Shown here: positions 36,153-50,337 of the stretch, piece after piece
Layout of the letters: each line of letters opens with the position of its first letter
Numbering within the stretch: position 1 is the first letter of the stretch
Assembly (NCBI GenBank): GCA_027605045.1
Contig: JAQFWX010000081.1
Coordinates: 94,653 to 158,652, forward strand
Direction: 5' to 3'
DNA: 64,000 nt
Source: Phallus indusiatus
Lineage: Eukaryota > Basidiomycota > Agaricomycetes > Phallales > Phallaceae
The notes under the pieces: model-generated
Database searches by the model: none
What the model was told of the DNA's origin: nothing
The model's input: only the letters and a program-made list of their open reading frames with translations
Translations under genes and position numbers: made by a program

Positions 36153-36679
36153 TGTCACTCCGCTGCAATGTCCTAGAAATTTGACTCTAACTGCCACTGC
36201 GACGTAGGCAGAAACTTGGCTGCAGCACAGAACAATCCCGTGTAAAAAAATTAGCATCGGAAATTGCGCTCAGAATAAATTTTATTCCGATGCCAAGTAT
36301 GTTCTTTTGACCCTTTCCGAGCTCACCAGGCTGATTACGCCATTTAATCTTTTCGATGAACTTTCTTAGGAGGCCTCGCCACACCAATCATCAATTTACA
36401 GTTTATTATGTTGTCAAGTCATGGCCCTTTTTTTCAAGTTTCATCTCATCTACCCCTCTCATTACAGAATTATCGACAGTCAGGTTGACCGTGTACCGGG
36501 AATATGGTTCATCGTTACAAGGTATCCAAATTCTCGGAACCACTGTCTGGAAGTACATTGATCGAATTTCAGACTAAAACTACAGAGCCTTTCAAAATTA
36601 TTTAATAATGCAATGCTAGTGAATGAAAAGAAAAAATAGAATTATTGCGTTAAATGAGGGTCAGGAAAGCAAACAACTA

Positions 36680-36731
36680 ACAAGCAAGCAAGCAAGAAAA
36701 AAAAATAAAAGAAAAAGAGAGAGAGAGAGAA
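36680..36731. repeat. CAAG, poly-A and GA microsatellite
   Basis: Consecutive CAAG units, an A run, and a GA dinucleotide run lie in the pacC 3' flank. It is a purine-rich simple sequence. Confidence 0.85.
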
Positions 36732-36857
36732 ATTGTAACGAGACAGCATTTCTAAAGACAGATGTGATAGATATTCCAAACGAGCTCAGGTATTATTAAA
36801 AATCAAAACTTCCACTACTTCTCAGTCCTCAAATCATGCCGAAAGTCGTATTTCCAA

Positions 36858-39450
36858 TCATTTCATCTCAACATCCACAGGCGTCTCAGACCGCCTGTCA
36901 AACACAGACATGGCTCTCCGCGGCGGAGATAGTGAAGTGGGGGATGAAGCAGAAGGAGAAGCAGTGATAGATGGTTTAAAACGTCCCTGGTACTGTTTAT
37001 TAATATATTCCAACAAATCGCGGACGACTCTCATGTGTGTTTGTCGTTGGGAGGAGCTGGATTCTCGGCGCAAATGCTCTTTAACAGGAGGGGATCGGGT
37101 AAGTGTAGGGGTCGCGGAACGGCTCGAGCCTTCGTCACTAGAGCTTACACTAACGCTCCTGCTCCTGCCTCTCGACCTGGTACTGACAGACGCGGTATCA
37201 GTGCTCTGATCATCCATTTCGTCATCGACGTCCATAGCGTCGCTTTCGACGCGTTTCTCCTTAGCAGTAGAAGTGGACAGCGGTGCAAGGCGAGACGATT
37301 CCGCCAGTAAAGAAGGTATCGGAGGAAGTTTCAGAGAACTCGTTGGGGATAATGACGAAGAAGAGGATGTTCGGGAAAATTGATAGCGAGTAGGGGACGT
37401 TAGTGACAAAGGAGGGGGTAAAGTAGGGTATTTAACTGTCGAGCCTGATGACAAAGGGATTGAAGGCAATGGGGGTAAAACACGTTGACCAGTAGTGGTC
37501 GTGCTTGTCCGCGTGTCAGCAGTTGGAATAGTATCTTCTTTTTCAGACTCGCTTTGGGTGTTCGAGGGTAAATCCAATTTGGGTAACCTAAGGGAGGGAT
37601 CGGCGGGATCGATAAACAAATTACTCAACGGGTTATCGTCTTGACCTTTCAGGGTGTCAGTTTTCAGTTTGTTTGATACATCTTTCGGCCGCTGTGGAGC
37701 GTCCTGTAGATCGGGCACCTGATATTTGTAGCTGGAATACGTGTCGTTCATTCGAACCTGAGGTGGTGGCATCCTGTGGTGGCCTTGGATTCGACTCGGT
37801 GGATTCAAAAAGGCGGGGTGGTGAACTTGATTGCCAATACCAATTCCAAGGGCGTCTCCGGGTATACCGCCTGGTAGTGACAATCCGACGTCGGTGGTGG
37901 ACACACTAGAAACACTACTTGACCCCGGACTTGAACCTCCCGGATCATTTCTGTACATGTCACCCTCGTCTGACGGGGTCTGACGACTGGAGACAGGGGT
38001 TGGCGGCCGTCTACGTCTGTCGTTACTCGCGAATGGAGGTTCGCTGAACTGGTGGTGGCGCGGATATGGCGGGTAGAGGCCAGAAGAATGAAAGCCGGCA
38101 GGTGATTCACCAAAGTCTCCTGGAAAGTAATATCCATTGTGACCGCCGCCTCCGCTACTATCCAAACGTTTACCGTCAGAGGTAGGCTTGACTGCGTACG
38201 TGGTATCCAGTCCAATTGCGCCATCAAAACCTGGATCGACGAGAGTCCGGGGATCAAAGGGAGTGCTAGAGTTGTTAAGCGGAGGTGAATATTCCTGCTT
38301 TACTTCATGGAAGCCGGGAGGCGAAGGAGCTCCCGAAATAACCTCTTTCCCAAGAGTAACGAGGAACTGGCTGATAGCGGCTAACTCTTCGGGAGTGCGA
38401 ATATCAAGGCTTATTTGCTGGGGATTGAATGTCGTGGGATTTGAATGGGTAGACGGGTATCCGAGAGAGCTACTCTGGTTATGTTGGACGTGATAGATAG
38501 GGGCCTGGGGAGAATCCGTCACTGGGCCATAGACACTGGACGTCATATTACGAGAGTGTGAATTGGTCACAGAAACCGAAGAATGAGAGGAATGAGTGGA
38601 TGGATTAGAACCTGTTCCCGTAAAAGAAGACGGCTGTGTGGCGTAGGCAATGGCATCAAGACGAGAAGCCATTTCTGATAGCAGAGGGGTATCGTTAAAA
38701 TATTGGTGGAAGATCACGATGTTATTGGATGGCTTACCGGCGTCATATTTGGCTTCGAATTTCCTTTTCTTCCAATCCAGAAGAAAATTACCGACAGCGG
38801 CGTCGTAATCGTGGGAACGCTTGAGACTGTTCGCATTTGGTGCAGGATGGGGCTGCCAATAGTGAGGAGGGTGCTGGTGCTGATGCTGGGTATAGTCTGG
38901 AGACTGGAGGAAGATATCGGGATGGGACATTTCGGGACTAGGCGTCGGGATTCCGTATGGCTGCTGTGATTGCTGCGGAGGTGGACGGAGATGAAGTTGA
39001 GTCGATGGATAGCCGGGGGCACGTCCGCTCGAAACGGTGATGGCTTTAGAGTGTTTGTGTTGAGCATGGTGTTCTTCTGTGTGGATCTTTTCATGTTTCT
39101 TGAGGTCCTGAGGACGTTTGAAAGATTTTGAGCATACTTCACAAGCGTGAGGCTTGAGAGGTGTATGGACTGAATAAGAAAGATAAGCTGAGGCTCAAAA
39201 AGAGAGGAGATACGAATGAAGAAGACCGACCTCGAAGGTGGGAAGTGATATGGTCTCTCTTGGCGCAGGTTGTGCCACAATCCTTCCATTTACAAGAGAG
39301 ACAGAGATTGTTGGTGCTTTTCCTGCCGATGTGGTCGTTGCAGAGATGGTTGTAGAGAGATTCTGGGTCTGGGGCGACTCTGGAGCAGCCTTCCCACTCG
39401 CACTTGTGCCCGTGATAGGGCGCGGCGTCGTCCAGCGAGATTGAGGGCAT
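36858..39450 (-). CDS. pacC: PacC/Rim101 pH-response transcription factor
   Basis: This is a zinc-finger activator of alkaline-pH genes, released in the pal/RIM pathway by C-terminal proteolysis. It starts [15 protein letters not shown] (ATG at 39448-39450). Three C2H2 fingers follow: [20 protein letters not shown] with the ending CNDH; then [20 protein letters not shown]; then [19 protein letters not shown]. One intron (GTCGGT donor, TTCAG acceptor) separates fingers two and three within the [11 protein letters not shown] join. [20 protein letters not shown] segment matches the downstream PacC-conserved region. The rest, about 600 residues, is Ser/Pro-rich and low complexity, including an acidic block near [12 protein letters not shown]. 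Total length is about 843 aa. Six PacC sites lie in its own promoter. Confidence 0.95.
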
Positions 39451-39571
39451 TGATGATAAAAAAAAGAGAAAGACAGAGAGAGATAAAAAGACGAGGGAGA
39501 GGAGGGGGAGCAGATGAGCAAACTTGGTGTGACAGACAGAAGAACGCCGTCCTTATTTTGCCTATCGACTT

Positions 39572-39730
39572 GCCAAGTAACACTTGGCGCCAAGAATACC
39601 CCGATTACCGGATCATGCCTTGCCAAGGACTATCCCAGGATACACCGCAGTTGACCTTGTATCCCAGTATATCCCACACCTGTCACTTACTATCCTGGAT
39701 GATCGCTCCTTCCCGCCAAGCGAGGCCAAG
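39572..39730. promoter_or_regulatory. Cluster of six PacC-binding sites (GCCAAG)
   Basis: Exact GCCAAG occurs at 39572-39577, 39589-39594, 39622-39627, 39715-39720 and 39725-39730 on the plus strand, and at 39583-39588 on the minus strand. Two of them form the perfect palindrome CTTGGCGCCAAG (39583-39594). All lie 122-280 bp upstream of the pacC-like ATG. The known Aspergillus PacC site is GCCARG. The sites are seen; autoregulation is inferred. Confidence 0.8.
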
Positions 39731-41219
39731 CGCGACACGGCTCCGCACGATTAACTCTAACACAAGAAAACAGTGCAGTGCAATTATTATTTGAATTCAT
39801 CTCATCTAATTGAATTGTCTAGCTTCTTAATAAACCGCTGGATTCAGGTCGTGGCGCACAAATGAAACTTGGGTGTGGCTTCAAACGAAATTTCCCAGTT
39901 TAGACTACGAAAGCCGGTTTCATGTCGTTGCCATGATTTTCTTCGAGTTTGAGATTGGTTCCGGTCAAAATGAAAATGAATAATATAATCGTAGCGAGTA
40001 TTGCAAAAATAGAGGCTCCCTGATGTTACTAACCTGGGTCAATCAAACTTTCATTAAAGAGGCAAAGGAAACGGGTGGCACTTCCATCTGCGTTACTACT
40101 TTATTGAATAGCAGCCTGTGTATGCGGCCTGATCATATCCAAGATCCCTGACAAGACATGTCAGATTGGAGTCTCTTGGACGACGACATGAGGTAAAACA
40201 TCCACGGCTTGGGAGTTAATGAAGTTTGTATTACTGTTTTGGAAATGAGCAATAACCACATGGAATAATCACGAAGCAATTACGCGTTCACCAACGCAGA
40301 TACTTACTAGTATGTTTCGGATAAATTTAGGAAGAGATTGCTGTGCGTACGTGTAATAATCATACCGTGTCAATGTGCCCTGACAAGGGGAAATCTCATG
40401 TCTATCTCAAAAAAAAAAAAATCACTGCAATGCTATGATAATTATGATATCGCTTATGAAAAGAACGCACCAGTATTTTGATAATGTTTTACACTTGGAA
40501 CCATAGTGGCGGTAATTAATTTTATCCGTCTACAATAGTATCCTTCAATTCCCATCATACATATATGTAATATCACTCACATGTGCGTCTGTCATGCCTT
40601 CTGTCGTCCGTTCTTCGTCACTCCGGTAAACAAAAATCTGACAAATATAGAATAAGTCCCCGTGCCAGAAAAGGTACAACACACAATCAAAAGCGTGGTA
40701 TTTATCATGTTCAGCTCGCTTTTCGCCGTCCGGGGCCAGGCTCATTATTTCAATTAGACGGGGAATACCGTGAGTTTGTCTTTAAAGTTCGATTTGTTTT
40801 TGGTTCCTGGCTGTCTTTCGGTGTAAGAACTCCCTAGAGAACGTCTTGGACGGCAAAGGAATCAGAATCCGGACTGAATGATCCATTAGCAAGAGAGATA
40901 CAAGGATTACATTTGGCGGCGCAGTGAATCCGAACCAAATTCTTTCCGCCGACTTAAGATGCTAAAACGACAGATTAAAAGTTTAAATTTTCATGACACT
41001 GAACGAAGCTCACTTTCCGATGCTCTTCCCTAGAAAATCTGATAGGTCTTCAATTCGCCTCAAGACCGAGAAGTTGCCAGATAGATGTGATGGCACCTGA
41101 CGCTAAGATATTTGAATCCTCATATTTTGGCTTGATCTATCATTGATCTACGTGTTCTCCTGCTGCGTCGATAATGTCACCGCACTTGCGGTCCCAGCTC
41201 AAGCTCGAAATGTGAAAGC

Positions 41220-41235
41220 TTACGTCAGCGATCGC
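41220..41235 (+). promoter_or_regulatory. TTACGTCA + GCGATCGC element of RRB1
   Basis: TTACGTCA (41220-41227) is directly followed by the palindrome GCGATCGC (41228-41235) and AAGTCC, 54-69 bp before the ATG. It shares words with the UTP11 and NOP6-like promoters. Confidence 0.45.
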
Positions 41236-41288
41236 AAGTCCGGCACAAGCGCGCCTTTTTTCAAAAAAAAAAATCTCTATCCATCGTG

Positions 41289-43034
41289 ATGTCAAAAAGG
41301 GCTGCTGCTGAAGAATCGGCTCCTTCTTCTAAAGCACAGGCTTTAGATGTCAATGGGGAAACATCGCAACCCCAAAGATTGCAAAAAATAAACGACGATG
41401 ATGTAGGAGAATTTGAGGACGCCTGGGAGGATGAAGTTGAGAGCGAGGAAGAGCAACAGCAAGATTTAGGCGATGTCCAAACGAATGGGGATCGTGAGTC
41501 GCTCTGTTACCTTTCCATGCATCGAGTATGATCAATGACTGCGAAAGGCCAGGTATGGAAGTAGACGATGAAGTTGAAGTTCTTGCCGCTGTAGAGGAAG
41601 AGGAAGATGAAAATGCGCCACAACCCGCCCCAGTAGCTTACATTCCTGGAAGATACAAGCTCGCCCATGATGAGATATTAGAACCGGATCAATCGGTGTA
41701 TATCTCTTTGCATTCGATGTCGGTGAATTGGCCTTGCTTGTCTTTCGACATCCTCCGCGATAATCTTGGAGAAGAACGTTCAAGATTTCCTGTAACTTGT
41801 TATGCCGTTGCCGGAACACAAGCAGATGTTGCCAAGAATAATGAAATTTTGGTGATGAAAATGAGCCAATTGCACAAAACTCAACGAGATGGTGGTACGT
41901 GGCTCCCCTCTGCTATTTTCTGTTTCAGTTCATCCTTCTGATATAAAGTCATTCACTTAGATCAAAGTGATGACGAAGATGAAGAAGACGATGTTGACAA
42001 CTTGGATGAGGATGCGGTTCTAGAATACCGGTCAATCCCGCATTTGGGAGGTATAAATCGAATCCGTGCGCAACCATTGCCAGCTGGTCAATCAATTCCA
42101 CCAGTCACTCAGCCGTATTATGTATCTACATGGTCAGAAACTGGGAAGGTAAATATCTTCGATATACGGACACTGGTTGAATCGCTGGCTGTACCGGGAT
42201 ATGTTCCGGATAAAACCCGTACCAGTACACCGGCTTTTACTATCACCGCCCATGGACGGAGCGAAGGCTTTGCCATGGACTGGGCTGCCTCAGGGACTTC
42301 TTCACTCAGACTTTTAACTGGAGACGTTCATTCTAGAATATTTTTGACGACATCTACTGGATCGTCATTCAACACGCTAACTCAACCGTTCACGTCGCAT
42401 ACGTCTTCCGTGGAGGATCTGCAATGGTCCCCCGCAGACCCCACGGTGTTTGCGTCATGCTCTGCAGACCGCAGTATACGCATATGGGATGTACGGGTTA
42501 AAGGGCGTAAGAGTGTGTTCGGCTTAGAGGCCGCTCACGACAGCGACGTGAACGTTATAAGTTGGAATAAATTTTCGACTTACCTTTTACTCAGTGGCGG
42601 TGATGAGGGTGGAATAAAAGTGTGGGATCTGCGGCATTTCAAAGAGTACATTATTTTCCCCCCTCCCCTTGGCTTTGGCGATTGACATCTTGTTTTTTTT
42701 AAGGCAACGATCGAAACCCACCCCTGTTGCCCTGTTTTCATGGCACGAAGCTCCCATCACCTCAGTTGAATGGCATCCGACTGAAGACAGCGTTTTTGCT
42801 GCATCAGGTGCTGACGATCAGGTTACACTCTGGGACTTGGCGGTCGAGCATGATGATGAAGAGTCCGGTATTAATGAAGACACTCAGGATGGAAAAGAGT
42901 TTCCTCCACAACTTTTGTTTAATCATCAGGGTCAGAAGGATATCAAGGAACTGCACTGGCATCCTCAAATACCGGGAGCGATGCTAACTACAGCCTCAGA
43001 CGGATTTAACTTTTTCAAAACTATCGCCGTGTAA
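41289..43034 (+). CDS. RRB1: Ribosome biogenesis WD-repeat protein RRB1/GRWD1
   Basis: This is a nuclear histone-chaperone-like WD40 protein that escorts ribosomal protein L3 (yeast Rrb1, human GRWD1). It starts MSKRAAAEESAPSSK; the N-terminal third is acidic (DDDVGEFEDAWEDEVESEEE). The CAF1C/H4-binding domain follows (YIPGRYKLAHDEILEPDQSV, MSVNWPCLSFDILRDNLG). WD repeats start after a second acidic linker: LQWSPADPTVFASCSADRSI with RIWDVR; NVISWNKFSTYLLLSGGDEG with KVWDLR; VEWHPTEDSVFAASGADDQV with TLWDLA. The end HWHPQIPGAMLTTASDGFN is diagnostic. Five or so exons; intact. Confidence 0.95.
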
Positions 43035-43415
43035 TTTAAAATTAGCTTTACCGGAGATGAAAAATTCCAGACCTTTTTTCTTACATAGTCAATTGTACCT
43101 ATCGAGCTATAATGCCCTTCATATTCGGCTTAAAAAAAACCGCCTTTTTCTTTCTAAAAAATCAATCTCCTCTCGATTCTTGAATGCCCAGGCTATCTCA
43201 ACTCAATTTACATTGATTATTTGAATTCGGACTTGTTGCAGGTTTCCACGCGGTTTCCGACGATTAGACGCCCTGCCAGCCCTGCGTCGCGCCTACACTG
43301 ACTCCGGACTGTTTCGTGCGCGTCGCTGTCATACGGCGACGACGCCAATATACCATCGATAGTCATTCTTCACCAAGATACCACTTTTAATATTTTCTGA
43401 ATCCTCAAGTATACT
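43035..43415. other. Intergenic
   Basis: RRB1 3' flank and promoter of the coiled-coil gene. Nothing specific is seen. Confidence 0.6.
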
Positions 43416-46400
43416 ATGCCAATAGGGTATGGCACTAATACGAGCGCTTTGGCATCTGTCAGTCTCTTTTGTTCTATTTTTTTTTTCTATCTGTCTTTTT
43501 AAACGCAAAACAATTTGTTGCTTTTCTAGTCCTTTGCGAATGCATCTGCTTCGTCGTCGAAGGTTACTTTGGAATCACAGACCGAAAAACGGAGTATCCG
43601 TAACCAAACACGAAAACTTATACCATGGTCTCGTCGAGGCCGGAAATCCGCCTCCGCCGACTTCGTCAAGGACGGTCCAAGTTCTGACATAGGACTCTCA
43701 GAGCCCCAAATTTTAGCTGGAAGATCGTTGACATCGAGCCCCGGTGGCTCAGAAGAGGCTTTCGAGACGCACATCGAAACGTTAATACCTACCCCTTGGC
43801 CTTGCGAAGATCGACCAGAAAACTGTCCCTCGATCACATCAGTTCCTCCATATAAACATAGCACATTTTACCGATTACACGCTCCTACGGGCCCGCCATA
43901 TTATATCAATCACCATCTTCGGCCTCCAAATCAATCTGCTCATGCTGCTGCTCAGTTTCCCGTTTCAGCCTTTTCCAGCTCTTTCCCGCCTCTTGCTGCT
44001 GTTCCTCAAGGATCTCCACCATTACGTACTATTAGACTCGGCGGCCTTACAACCGATCGCCAGTATTCTTCTTTTCAAGTTCAACAATCTTCGTCAGAAA
44101 GTGTATTACCAACTCCTGATTCTTCTTCTAGTATTGGGTTTGCCGGTGCCAGCAGTGTATCATATCAAAATAGAGATGAACTTAATGCCATGTCTATGAA
44201 GAACATGCTTGCAGCTGCCGACGTTGATCAACTAGACTTTTCTAGTCCCTGGGGCCAAAGATTCCATCATGACTCTCCATATGACTTGGGACAAAGGAAA
44301 GGAAAGAAACCCGTCCGTTCTATGGGTGGGTATGGGTCAATCTCAGCTACAGATGTGCGTATTGCCTTTATTTTTACATACCTACCATTAATTTTCTGTT
44401 TCATTTCCTACAGCTCCGTGCTCGAGTTCCATCAAACGCCCGATTCTCTCGTCCAACAACCCCTCTCCTCTTTCGCAGTCCACTCCTGCCGTGAATATAC
44501 AAACGGATAACCAAAACAACTTTCCCCTCCCCGTCGGAAATTGAGCAAGCGAAGACCGTCCGGCCTGCAAGCTCCTCCAACGACATCCCCATCCCCAGAT
44601 AGCGATTCTCCCTCAGAATCTCATCCACCCGATTCCTCTCTTGTCGATTACGGCGCCGCTGAGTCGGGTGTGTCCATGACTATCACCGCCATCTCTCAAA
44701 ACGCGCCCTCTCAAGTCACAGACTCCACCGTCCCCGGCCTTTCTCGCAAACTATCCAAGAAAAGGCCTAGTCAATTTCAGTTTCCCTCAACTCAAGGCTA
44801 CATTCCTTCTCCAGAAAAAAATAGAGGACCGAATGTATTCAGTCGCATGGCTAAGCGAATCAGTTTTGGGATGGGCAATCTTATGTCGGGAGGTACAAAA
44901 CGTGGCATGGTTTTCGAGCGACGTCTGGGACATAAGGGATCTTTCAGTATGACAGATGTCACTGTTCTATCCAAGGAACGTTATAATCCTTCTCCTCAAG
45001 ACGTTTCCAACTTGGTAACTCGCGACGGGCCATCCCAACAGGAGCCGAAAAAGCAAGGGCCCAGAAGAGTTCCACCGCCTTCATTCGAAGAACCTGCACC
45101 TTCCACTTCAGCTCCTGCTTCACAAGTATCCATTGAACCCTCGCCCATTGAATCTACCTCTGAGACAGAACCCGTTTCAACAGCCCCACAACTTCCCGAA
45201 TTCTTACCAAATTCTTCTACGTTCAACATCTTCTCGCCGTTACAGCAGAAAAACGACATTCGCGATAGCCTTTTGAGCACGGACGCAGAACCGGAGTGGT
45301 CTTTGGGTAAATTAACCATCGCAAATCCCGATCTTGCTGGTGGTTCTGACACCGATACGTCTCTTAGAGGAAAGCATCAGAAACTGACACCTCTCCCTCG
45401 TCCTCAGAACAGAATTACCTTAATGGATCCAGATCCACGTGCGTCTATACGTGCAGAGATAGACTCTCGTAGTTCTCTTCATGATCCGGACGTTCGTTTT
45501 TCTCGCTCTTTTACTTCAGAATCCGTCACCCCCGTGCAAAATCCCCAAACTTTGCAGTCCCCAAGACCGGAACCACCAGAACGGGTACTTCCTCCACCAC
45601 CTCCGAAAGATCGTGAATCTGCCGCCACTAGTGAAACAGTAACAGCTCAAGACCTTCGCGTGTCGATGACCGAGTCCTCCGTCACGCCAACCTCTACTCG
45701 ACTTTCGTCTCGCGTATCATCTCCAGAACTTCCTCCGACTCCGCAAGATGTTTCTGTTTCCTCACACGCACCTTCCAACGTGTTCCCTCCTCCACCTCCA
45801 TCAAAGCAAGCTGGGAAACCTAAGATTGATGTCTCGATTCAAGGATCTCAGCACAGTCACTCAGGGGCCTCAGCGGAGTCGAGTGGGTCGAACAATCACT
45901 CGAGTGCTGAGATAATCTCGCCCAGCATCCCGCGACTTCATGGACGGCAGGAGCACGTATACATCGTTGATGTTCCTGTCGATGGCCCATTATTCGTTCG
46001 TCCCTCTCCAGACGGTACTTCTATTCCTCCCGTTGAAAAACCCGAACTCCCTCCTCTTCCTCCCAAACCCAGAGCTCCGGAAAATGCAACCAATTCTCCG
46101 CTTACTACCACCCCTTCTTCTGTGCGCCAGTCGAAAGAACGTAAAGAAAAAGAGACAACCATTTTTACTAGTCTTTTTCTACACCACGTTCCCGTCGAAC
46201 GTCTGAAACTTCCCCCAGAGCCAGAGATGGTAGTCCTCATGACCGTAGTCCTCAAGGCGTATCTTCGAGACCTAGCAGACGGGCTAGAAATAGTCCCGAA
46301 AAGCCTTATCCGGTTGTCGCTACACATTCACGTAGTCCCACGAATACTTCAACTGAATCTCGTTCTCGCGAGGAACGCGTCAAGTCGGAACGAGATCATT

Positions 46401-48709: not shown

Positions 48710-50337
48710 CACACTGGGTGCAAGAATCGATTGAGTTCAAATCGAATCAGCTTTGAAGACGTTCTCGTCGATCATAAGTTACTGATACTGGATAACGCCG
48801 TTTAGATCCTATGTTGAAAGCAACCAAGTAATTACACTGCACCCCTTTCAGTGTTTATTTTGATCCTATTAAAAGTGAATGAAATCATGAATGTCCTCGC
48901 AATGACGCAAGATTAGGATCAAACGAAACGATAGCGGAACTTGAGCGGGACCATCAAGATTCAATGCTGAGTCAGCAATATTGAGGTAAGCCCGGTGGTG
49001 CTACTGACGTGTTTCTCAAAAATTTTCCAAGCGAAATCTTCCCAAAAAAAGACCGTTGCTCTTCTTCAGAATTTGGGCTAAAAACCTGTCTCTATATTGA
49101 TGATCAGCTATGGTTACATCCAAGAAAAAGCAATTGACGATAACTCAACAAGTGCTTAAGCTCAAGGTTCACCAACCCAATATCATAGACATTTCTTTAC
49201 TTGCTCAGTTGAATCATATTGGATCAAGAGCTTGAACTGGATGATATCATCACCTCCGGGCCAAAAATACTATTATTACGAAACAGGGTGGCGTATAAAC
49301 ATTTCACCAGCACAGCCCATATCGAGTGACTCAGGTCATTCATCACATGCATCACAACTCAAGCCTTGTCAAACTTAATTTAGAGGTGAAGTCTCTTTGT
49401 GTGTCTTAGACAATTGCATGATACTAGTTAATTAACAGATTTTTCGCCGCAAGTGAGAGATTAGCAAAGCTGCTCATCACGTTATTCTTGATACCACGGA
49501 TTCGTTCATCTTCAGACTCTCAAATCTGTACTTTCTAAAACTCTAACGTGAAGGTCTGTGTTCGGTTTGCCCGGCCAAACAACATAGTAACTAACAACTG
49601 TGCCAAGCCCACTTCGTTTCTTTACGTGTGGCAGACCTATGCGTGCCAAGTCTTTTTCCCCGACTGTCATAAAGCAATTAACGATTTTATAATTATTGTT
49701 TCGAGTGAAGCGACATCCCAGTTACTTTGGCTTGAATCTGTATATTCAGTGACAAGTGGGTATGGGTGTTTCGTTCTCCATGACGTGGTAAATAATACAA
49801 AGCTGTTTATGCCAACCGAGAGCAGCCGTTAATTAACTGGTGAGCCACTTCAAGCTTCATCCTTCAAGTTATCTTAACTTGATTCGTATATTTGAAACGA
49901 GCTTAGGTGACAAATCACGAGGGGAAATCTAAACAACACCGCAGCTTACTCCTTTGAAGCTAGTTGAAGTAACGCCATGATGAACAATTGGTGCACACCT
50001 CCGCAGGTACCCGAAAGTTTATATGATGGTCAGATCTTTCAATTTTGGCTCCGTGAGTCTGGCGAAAATTTGCGATACACTATGTATCTAACTCTCGTCT
50101 TAAATTATGCCTTTTGGACGATCGTAAGGACTGTCGTTGACACCAGTCACGATGATGTGTCAGTAAGTAGTATCTTGATCCAGTACTGCCAAGTTGTTCG
50201 TGATCTTTGATGTGTCGTAGAGAATGCTCTTAAGCTTGCCAAGTCACCCCGGCTAAAACAATAAACCTTAAAACCAATTTGAAAAAGTGTAACATGGCTA
50301 CATCTGGCAATTAACATCAGCCAAGAGTCAGCTAAAC
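48710..50337. other. Intergenic, no supported gene
   Basis: AT-rich with scattered open frames below 95 codons and no recognisable product. No repeat or RNA gene is seen. Confidence 0.5.

Follow-up and report, generated by a model that had tools for sequence, protein, structure and literature searches.

We found that six exact copies of GCCAAG, five on the plus strand and one on the minus strand in a word scan, are packed into positions 39572–39730 of the 64-kb window (that is, the whole stretch of DNA analysed, lying on contig C186 of an assembly of 67.2 Mb in 206 contigs), 122–280 bp upstream of the start codon (39450, minus strand) of a gene for a PacC/Rim101-type zinc-finger protein in a Phallales-like basidiomycete. 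The observation was confirmed as statistically strong, with some loss of strength should the sites depend on one another. The cluster would constitute an array of putative PacC/Rim101 binding sites controlling the factor's own gene. We put at about 78% the probability that PacC directly autoregulates through this six-site array, coupling pacC transcription to ambient pH, a judgment made from the DNA sequence.

The GCCAAG cluster and its excess over background

Both the number of sites and their distance from the pacC ATG, as given in a preliminary description of this DNA, were reproduced by the scan. Site 1 (39572–39577, plus strand) stands in the context TGCCAAGT and is followed by sites 2 (39583–39588, minus strand) and 3 (39589–39594, plus strand; context CGCCAAGA), which abut as the left and right halves of a perfect 12-bp palindrome, CTTGGCGCCAAG (39583–39594), again as had been described. 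The remaining three sites are all on the plus strand, namely site 4 (39622–39627; context TGCCAAGG), site 5 (39715–39720; context CGCCAAGC), and site 6 (39725–39730; context GGCCAAGC). Sites 5 and 6 are units 1 and 2 of a head-to-tail 10-bp near repeat with 9 of 10 bases alike, and thus a single duplication may have given both. Tandem duplication as the source of the whole cluster was rejected, none being seen apart from that possible 10-bp duplication; no perfect repeat common to a pair of sites is longer than 9 bp (CTTGCCAAG, in sites 1 and 4). The variant GCCAGG does not occur in the cluster (39572–39730), and one extra GCCAAG is found at 39259, within pacC exon 1. The motif preference of N. 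crassa PAC-3, BGCCVAGV (PMC4996508), is matched by four of the six sites (sites 3 to 6), sites 1 and 2 missing it because a T comes after the core. Several TATCCCAG/TATCCTGG-like elements were observed between sites 4 and 5 (39631–39698). A search of Rfam over 36500–43500 gave no match, and a bacterial-type promoter and terminator scan is not meaningful for fungal DNA.

GCCAAG occurs 27,598 times on both strands of the assembly (13,774 + 13,824 per 67,222,576 bases), and the reversed control word 24,966 times (12,610 + 12,356). At the assembly-wide rate, 0.063 copies are expected in a 159-bp span, and the Poisson probability of six or more is 8.4e-11, or 3.6e-5 when summed over all non-overlapping segments of the assembly, the sites being treated as independent in both figures. 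The comparison with background density suggested in the preliminary description, made assembly-wide rather than promoter by promoter, thus places the cluster above the GCCAAG rate. Moreover, nine of the 2,079 hexamer classes in the 64-kb window attain six copies within 159 bp, and the other eight are GA-only words. All other dense hexamer clusters in the window come from a GA-rich low-complexity stretch at 46.6–47.3 kb. Three plus-strand GCCAAG copies also lie within 138 bp at 50188–50325.

The cluster could be a product of chance, local duplication, or compositional clustering, with no regulatory role, and it was indeed picked out by a whole-window search for anything striking. Because sites 2 and 3 make up a single palindrome and sites 5 and 6 a near repeat that may be a 10-bp tandem duplication, the calculation was repeated with four independent events, whereupon about 0.27 such segments are expected assembly-wide; in addition, GCCARG is more frequent overall in the window than expected (69 copies, a number reached by none of 100 shuffles, where 45.8 are expected). 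Even with four events, however, P is 6.3e-7 at this one promoter, which is that of the gene for the cognate factor. Furthermore, none of 5,000 dinucleotide shuffles of 39451–41291 had at least four GCCAAG within 159 bp (five had three), only one of the 5,000 had six across the whole 1.84 kb, and the 181-bp cluster, when shuffled 20,000 times, never gave more than three sites. Given the assembly rate, the shuffles, and the scan of all hexamers, we consider a chance or compositional origin quite improbable, and say so less strongly if only four of the events are independent.

The arrangement GCCAAG, CTTGGC, and GCCAAG, with gaps of 0–30 bases, occurs five times in the 67-Mb assembly, all five at pacC promoter copies, a uniqueness that covers this order of the three words only. 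With the reversed control triad there were 95 + 81 = 176 matches, as against 5 for the real triad; triads of some hexamers are common, perhaps within repeats.

The encoded protein and the factor that reads the array

The pacC gene lies on the minus strand. Exon 1 (39231–39450), located by protein search, begins with the start codon at 39450 and encodes the first zinc finger together with most of finger 2, which is split by a 61-bp intron (39170–39230; GTCGGT...CAG) whose splicing we infer because its removal yields a continuous finger sequence. Exon 2 (38738–39169) encodes the end of finger 2, finger 3, and a basic His-rich stretch. It is followed by a probable second intron of 63 bp (38675–38737), in frame and without a stop, which was assigned because the segment is missing from the Clathrus columnatus homologue P0002. 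Exon 3 (36858–38674) extends to the stop codon and encodes a long low-complexity tail with one YPTL motif. The protein comprises 843 residues with intron 1 removed and 822 if intron 2 is also removed.

Three Cys/His units were found by reading the spliced protein. Fingers 1 and 3 scored over the Pfam cut-off (with PF21816, which takes its name from finger 1 of Zap1, and PF00096, respectively), and finger 2 (CLSCKWKDC...) was recognised by eye. A homologue search, in which 7,989 candidates were scored, yielded at least 792 proteins at E<=0.001, and the best 120 of these 792 were used for comparison. Over these 120, the finger-2 helix KRDHITSH is present in 117, the finger-3 helix KRPQDLKKH gave 118 matches, and YPX[LI] occurs anywhere in 111, being missing from homologues P0002, P0003, and P0004. 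YPX(L/I) is the PalA-binding motif in the C-terminal part of PacC, and the YPTL of the window protein is of this form. Among the matches listed, the closest named homologue is from Clathrus columnatus (Phallales; 48% identical, with 100% of the query covered), and a metagenomic protein is closer still (81% identity over 72%); the named homologues listed are basidiomycetes by name, several of them called PacC by their source. PacC is absent among the best 60 of 127 solved-structure matches. With its three C2H2 fingers, PacC-type helices, and overall orthology, the gene is, as judged from its sequence, a PacC/Rim101 orthologue.

Finger 3 of PacC makes contact with the GCC half of the word, and finger 2 with the ARG half. 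The Lys, Asp, and Arg residues of finger 3 and the Ser, His, and Lys residues of finger 2 presumably suit GCC-ARG by general C2H2 rules, and the protein is therefore expected to read GCCARG; this expectation carries the specificity over to mushrooms from ascomycetes by analogy. In Cryptococcus, GCCAAG and CCAAGAA are treated as potential Rim101 sites only, according to the text seen of PMC2824755.

Another factor, either E2F-like or a different C2H2 protein sharing the GCCAAG word, might instead read the array. The palindrome CTTGGCGCCAAG holds a TTGGCGCCAA core, which we take to resemble the E2F palindrome, and its distribution extends beyond pacC. It occurs 13 times in the assembly as against 2 for the reversed control, with five copies at pacC, seven beside members of a duplicated gene family (L026 to L032), and one at L025, where it adjoins an amino-acid permease-like frame. 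Among the frames listed, the palindrome at L026–L032 lies between two divergent members of the family in six of the seven cases. Two pieces of the family were scanned, one matching an alpha-L-rhamnosidase N-terminal domain (PF08531) and the other giving no match. It is possible that this family is co-regulated with pacC; its genes are unrelated to pacC and not necessarily PacC targets, a point in favour of a different factor. On the other side, E2F would leave unexplained the four single GCCAAG words that lie apart from the palindrome. A search for the E2F_TDP domain found no match in the assembly, but control genomes likewise gave none, so that this negative does not establish absence. As regards a C2H2 competitor, searching the assembly with the protein recovered, besides the five pacC loci (matched exon by exon), a single weak match to the N-terminal part of PacC (29% identity, E 1.8e-4); apart from the assembly copies of the same locus, pacC is single-copy. 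We therefore regard a different factor as unlikely and PacC itself as the probable reader.

General enrichment of the palindrome was considered and is not claimed, since the 13 copies reduce to about three independent origins; as the copies were gathered by exact match, their identity is no evidence for conservation. Binding by PacC is monomeric. The proposal, made together with that of autoregulation, that the palindrome is bound cooperatively or by a dimer is conceivable but unsupported, the palindrome recurring at three kinds of locus only.

Direct autoregulation and its precedents

The start codons of pacC and of a plus-strand gene with WD40 repeats (41289) are divergent and about 1.8 kb apart, so that an array bound by PacC could in principle serve the WD40-repeat gene, or a non-coding transcript, instead of pacC. 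The distance from the sites to the pacC start, however, is 122–280 bp, as against some 1.56 kb or more to that of the WD40 gene, which renders such an assignment highly improbable. Direct autoregulation of pacC is favoured because it is the simplest account and has precedents. The proposal of direct autoregulation in the preliminary description thus stands as a probable reading, drawn from the PacC orthology, the excess of sites, and the ascomycete precedents, in which we infer the binding, its pH dependence, and the direction of control.

These precedents differ in sign. Full-length PacC72 acts as a repressor of pacC in A. nidulans, where alkaline expression arises by derepression (PMC4832277); the likeness lies in a PacC-family factor that controls its own transcription in connection with ambient pH, although A. 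nidulans is an ascomycete, the control was shown there by mutants and Northern blots, and the text seen of the source maps no sites in the pacC promoter. The same source, in the part seen, mentions further ascomycetes with alkaline pacC expression, considers that autoregulation may be common, names RIM101 of S. cerevisiae as an exception with no alkaline induction, and describes reporter studies on the sign of autoregulation as lacking (PMC4832277). In N. crassa, many PAC-3 motifs are present in the pac-3 promoter, as in the cluster described here, and PAC-3 occupies this promoter in vivo by ChIP-PCR, but at alkaline pH only, which was read as activation (PMC4996508). Rim101 of Y. lipolytica activates transcription of its own gene and recognises the core GCCARG, the self-control and the core being shared with the present case, whereas this organism is an ascomycete yeast and the text seen of the source describes no six-site array (PMC8265631). 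The parts seen of PMC4393102 and PMC3432076 held nothing bearing on self-binding, and the matches listed from the open-licence literature include no mushroom-forming fungus in which PacC was reported to bind its own gene.

By analogy with A. nidulans, unprocessed PacC would repress its own gene, and processing at alkaline pH would relieve the repression. We lean slightly toward such feedback repression over self-activation, the sign suggested in N. crassa and Y. lipolytica. The circuit itself is of a known kind, and the instance is new. If true, it would extend direct PacC self-control from ascomycetes to Agaricomycetes, and the compact array would offer a clean fragment for settling the sign and the behaviour of closely packed PacC sites. 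A bolder and doubtful extension is that the pacC promoter is the densest PacC target of the genome and that this homotypic six-site array, with two sites abutting as a palindrome, makes the regulator itself the strongest sensor of how much PacC is present, giving a sharp and possibly bistable pH switch in mushroom-forming fungi.

Site number alone has a parallel among PacC target genes. In A. nidulans, PacC controls ENA-type ATPase genes, and enaA and enaB, which are positively regulated by PacC, carry five and six putative PacC sites, respectively (PMC7459330). They are target genes, however, and the enaA sites were counted over 1 kb upstream, in contrast to the six within 159 bp of the regulator's own gene here. 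In the present assembly, an ENA-type sodium ATPase was matched exon by exon, below the family cut-off, on contigs C144 and C125; within roughly 500 bp upstream of the likely start, which was placed by eye, one GCCAAG and one GCCAGG are found in both copies. This expected target lacks an array, and thus a dense array does not mark the expected PacC targets of this genome in general.

Assembly copies of the pacC promoter

The pacC promoter is present on five contigs, namely C186 (the window), C159 (99%), and C80, C67, and C129 (95–96%). Aligning 9.8–9.9 kb per copy gave two groups, {C186, C159} and {C80, C67, C129}, the C159 copy being a mosaic of both. The doubling of the assembly suggests that it holds both nuclei of a dikaryon together with duplicated contig ends.

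All six GCCAAG sites are unchanged in the five copies, which represent about two haplotypes, so that their intactness says little about selection. Scans of prokaryote and viral sequence collections yielded no orthologous DNA from a fungus. Within the cluster (39561–39740), the alignment of C186 with each of C80, C67, and C129 shows 2 substitutions over 170 aligned bases and, between sites 4 and 5, a 10-bp deletion; no difference between the groups hits a site. Comparison of the groups elsewhere gave 7–9 differences in 256–260 bases for the adjacent upstream stretch, 61–62 in about 2,130 for pacC (36858–38990), and 25 in 1,743 for the neighbouring WD40-type gene. Because the changes are few and the WD40-type gene is about as similar, no special constraint on the cluster is demonstrated. 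In the second haplotype group, the 10-bp deletion drops one of the TATCCCAG/TATCCTGG-like elements and spares all GCCAAG sites. In the C159 and C67 copies, the open frames of the large pacC exon are shorter and carry small indels, perhaps assembly errors.
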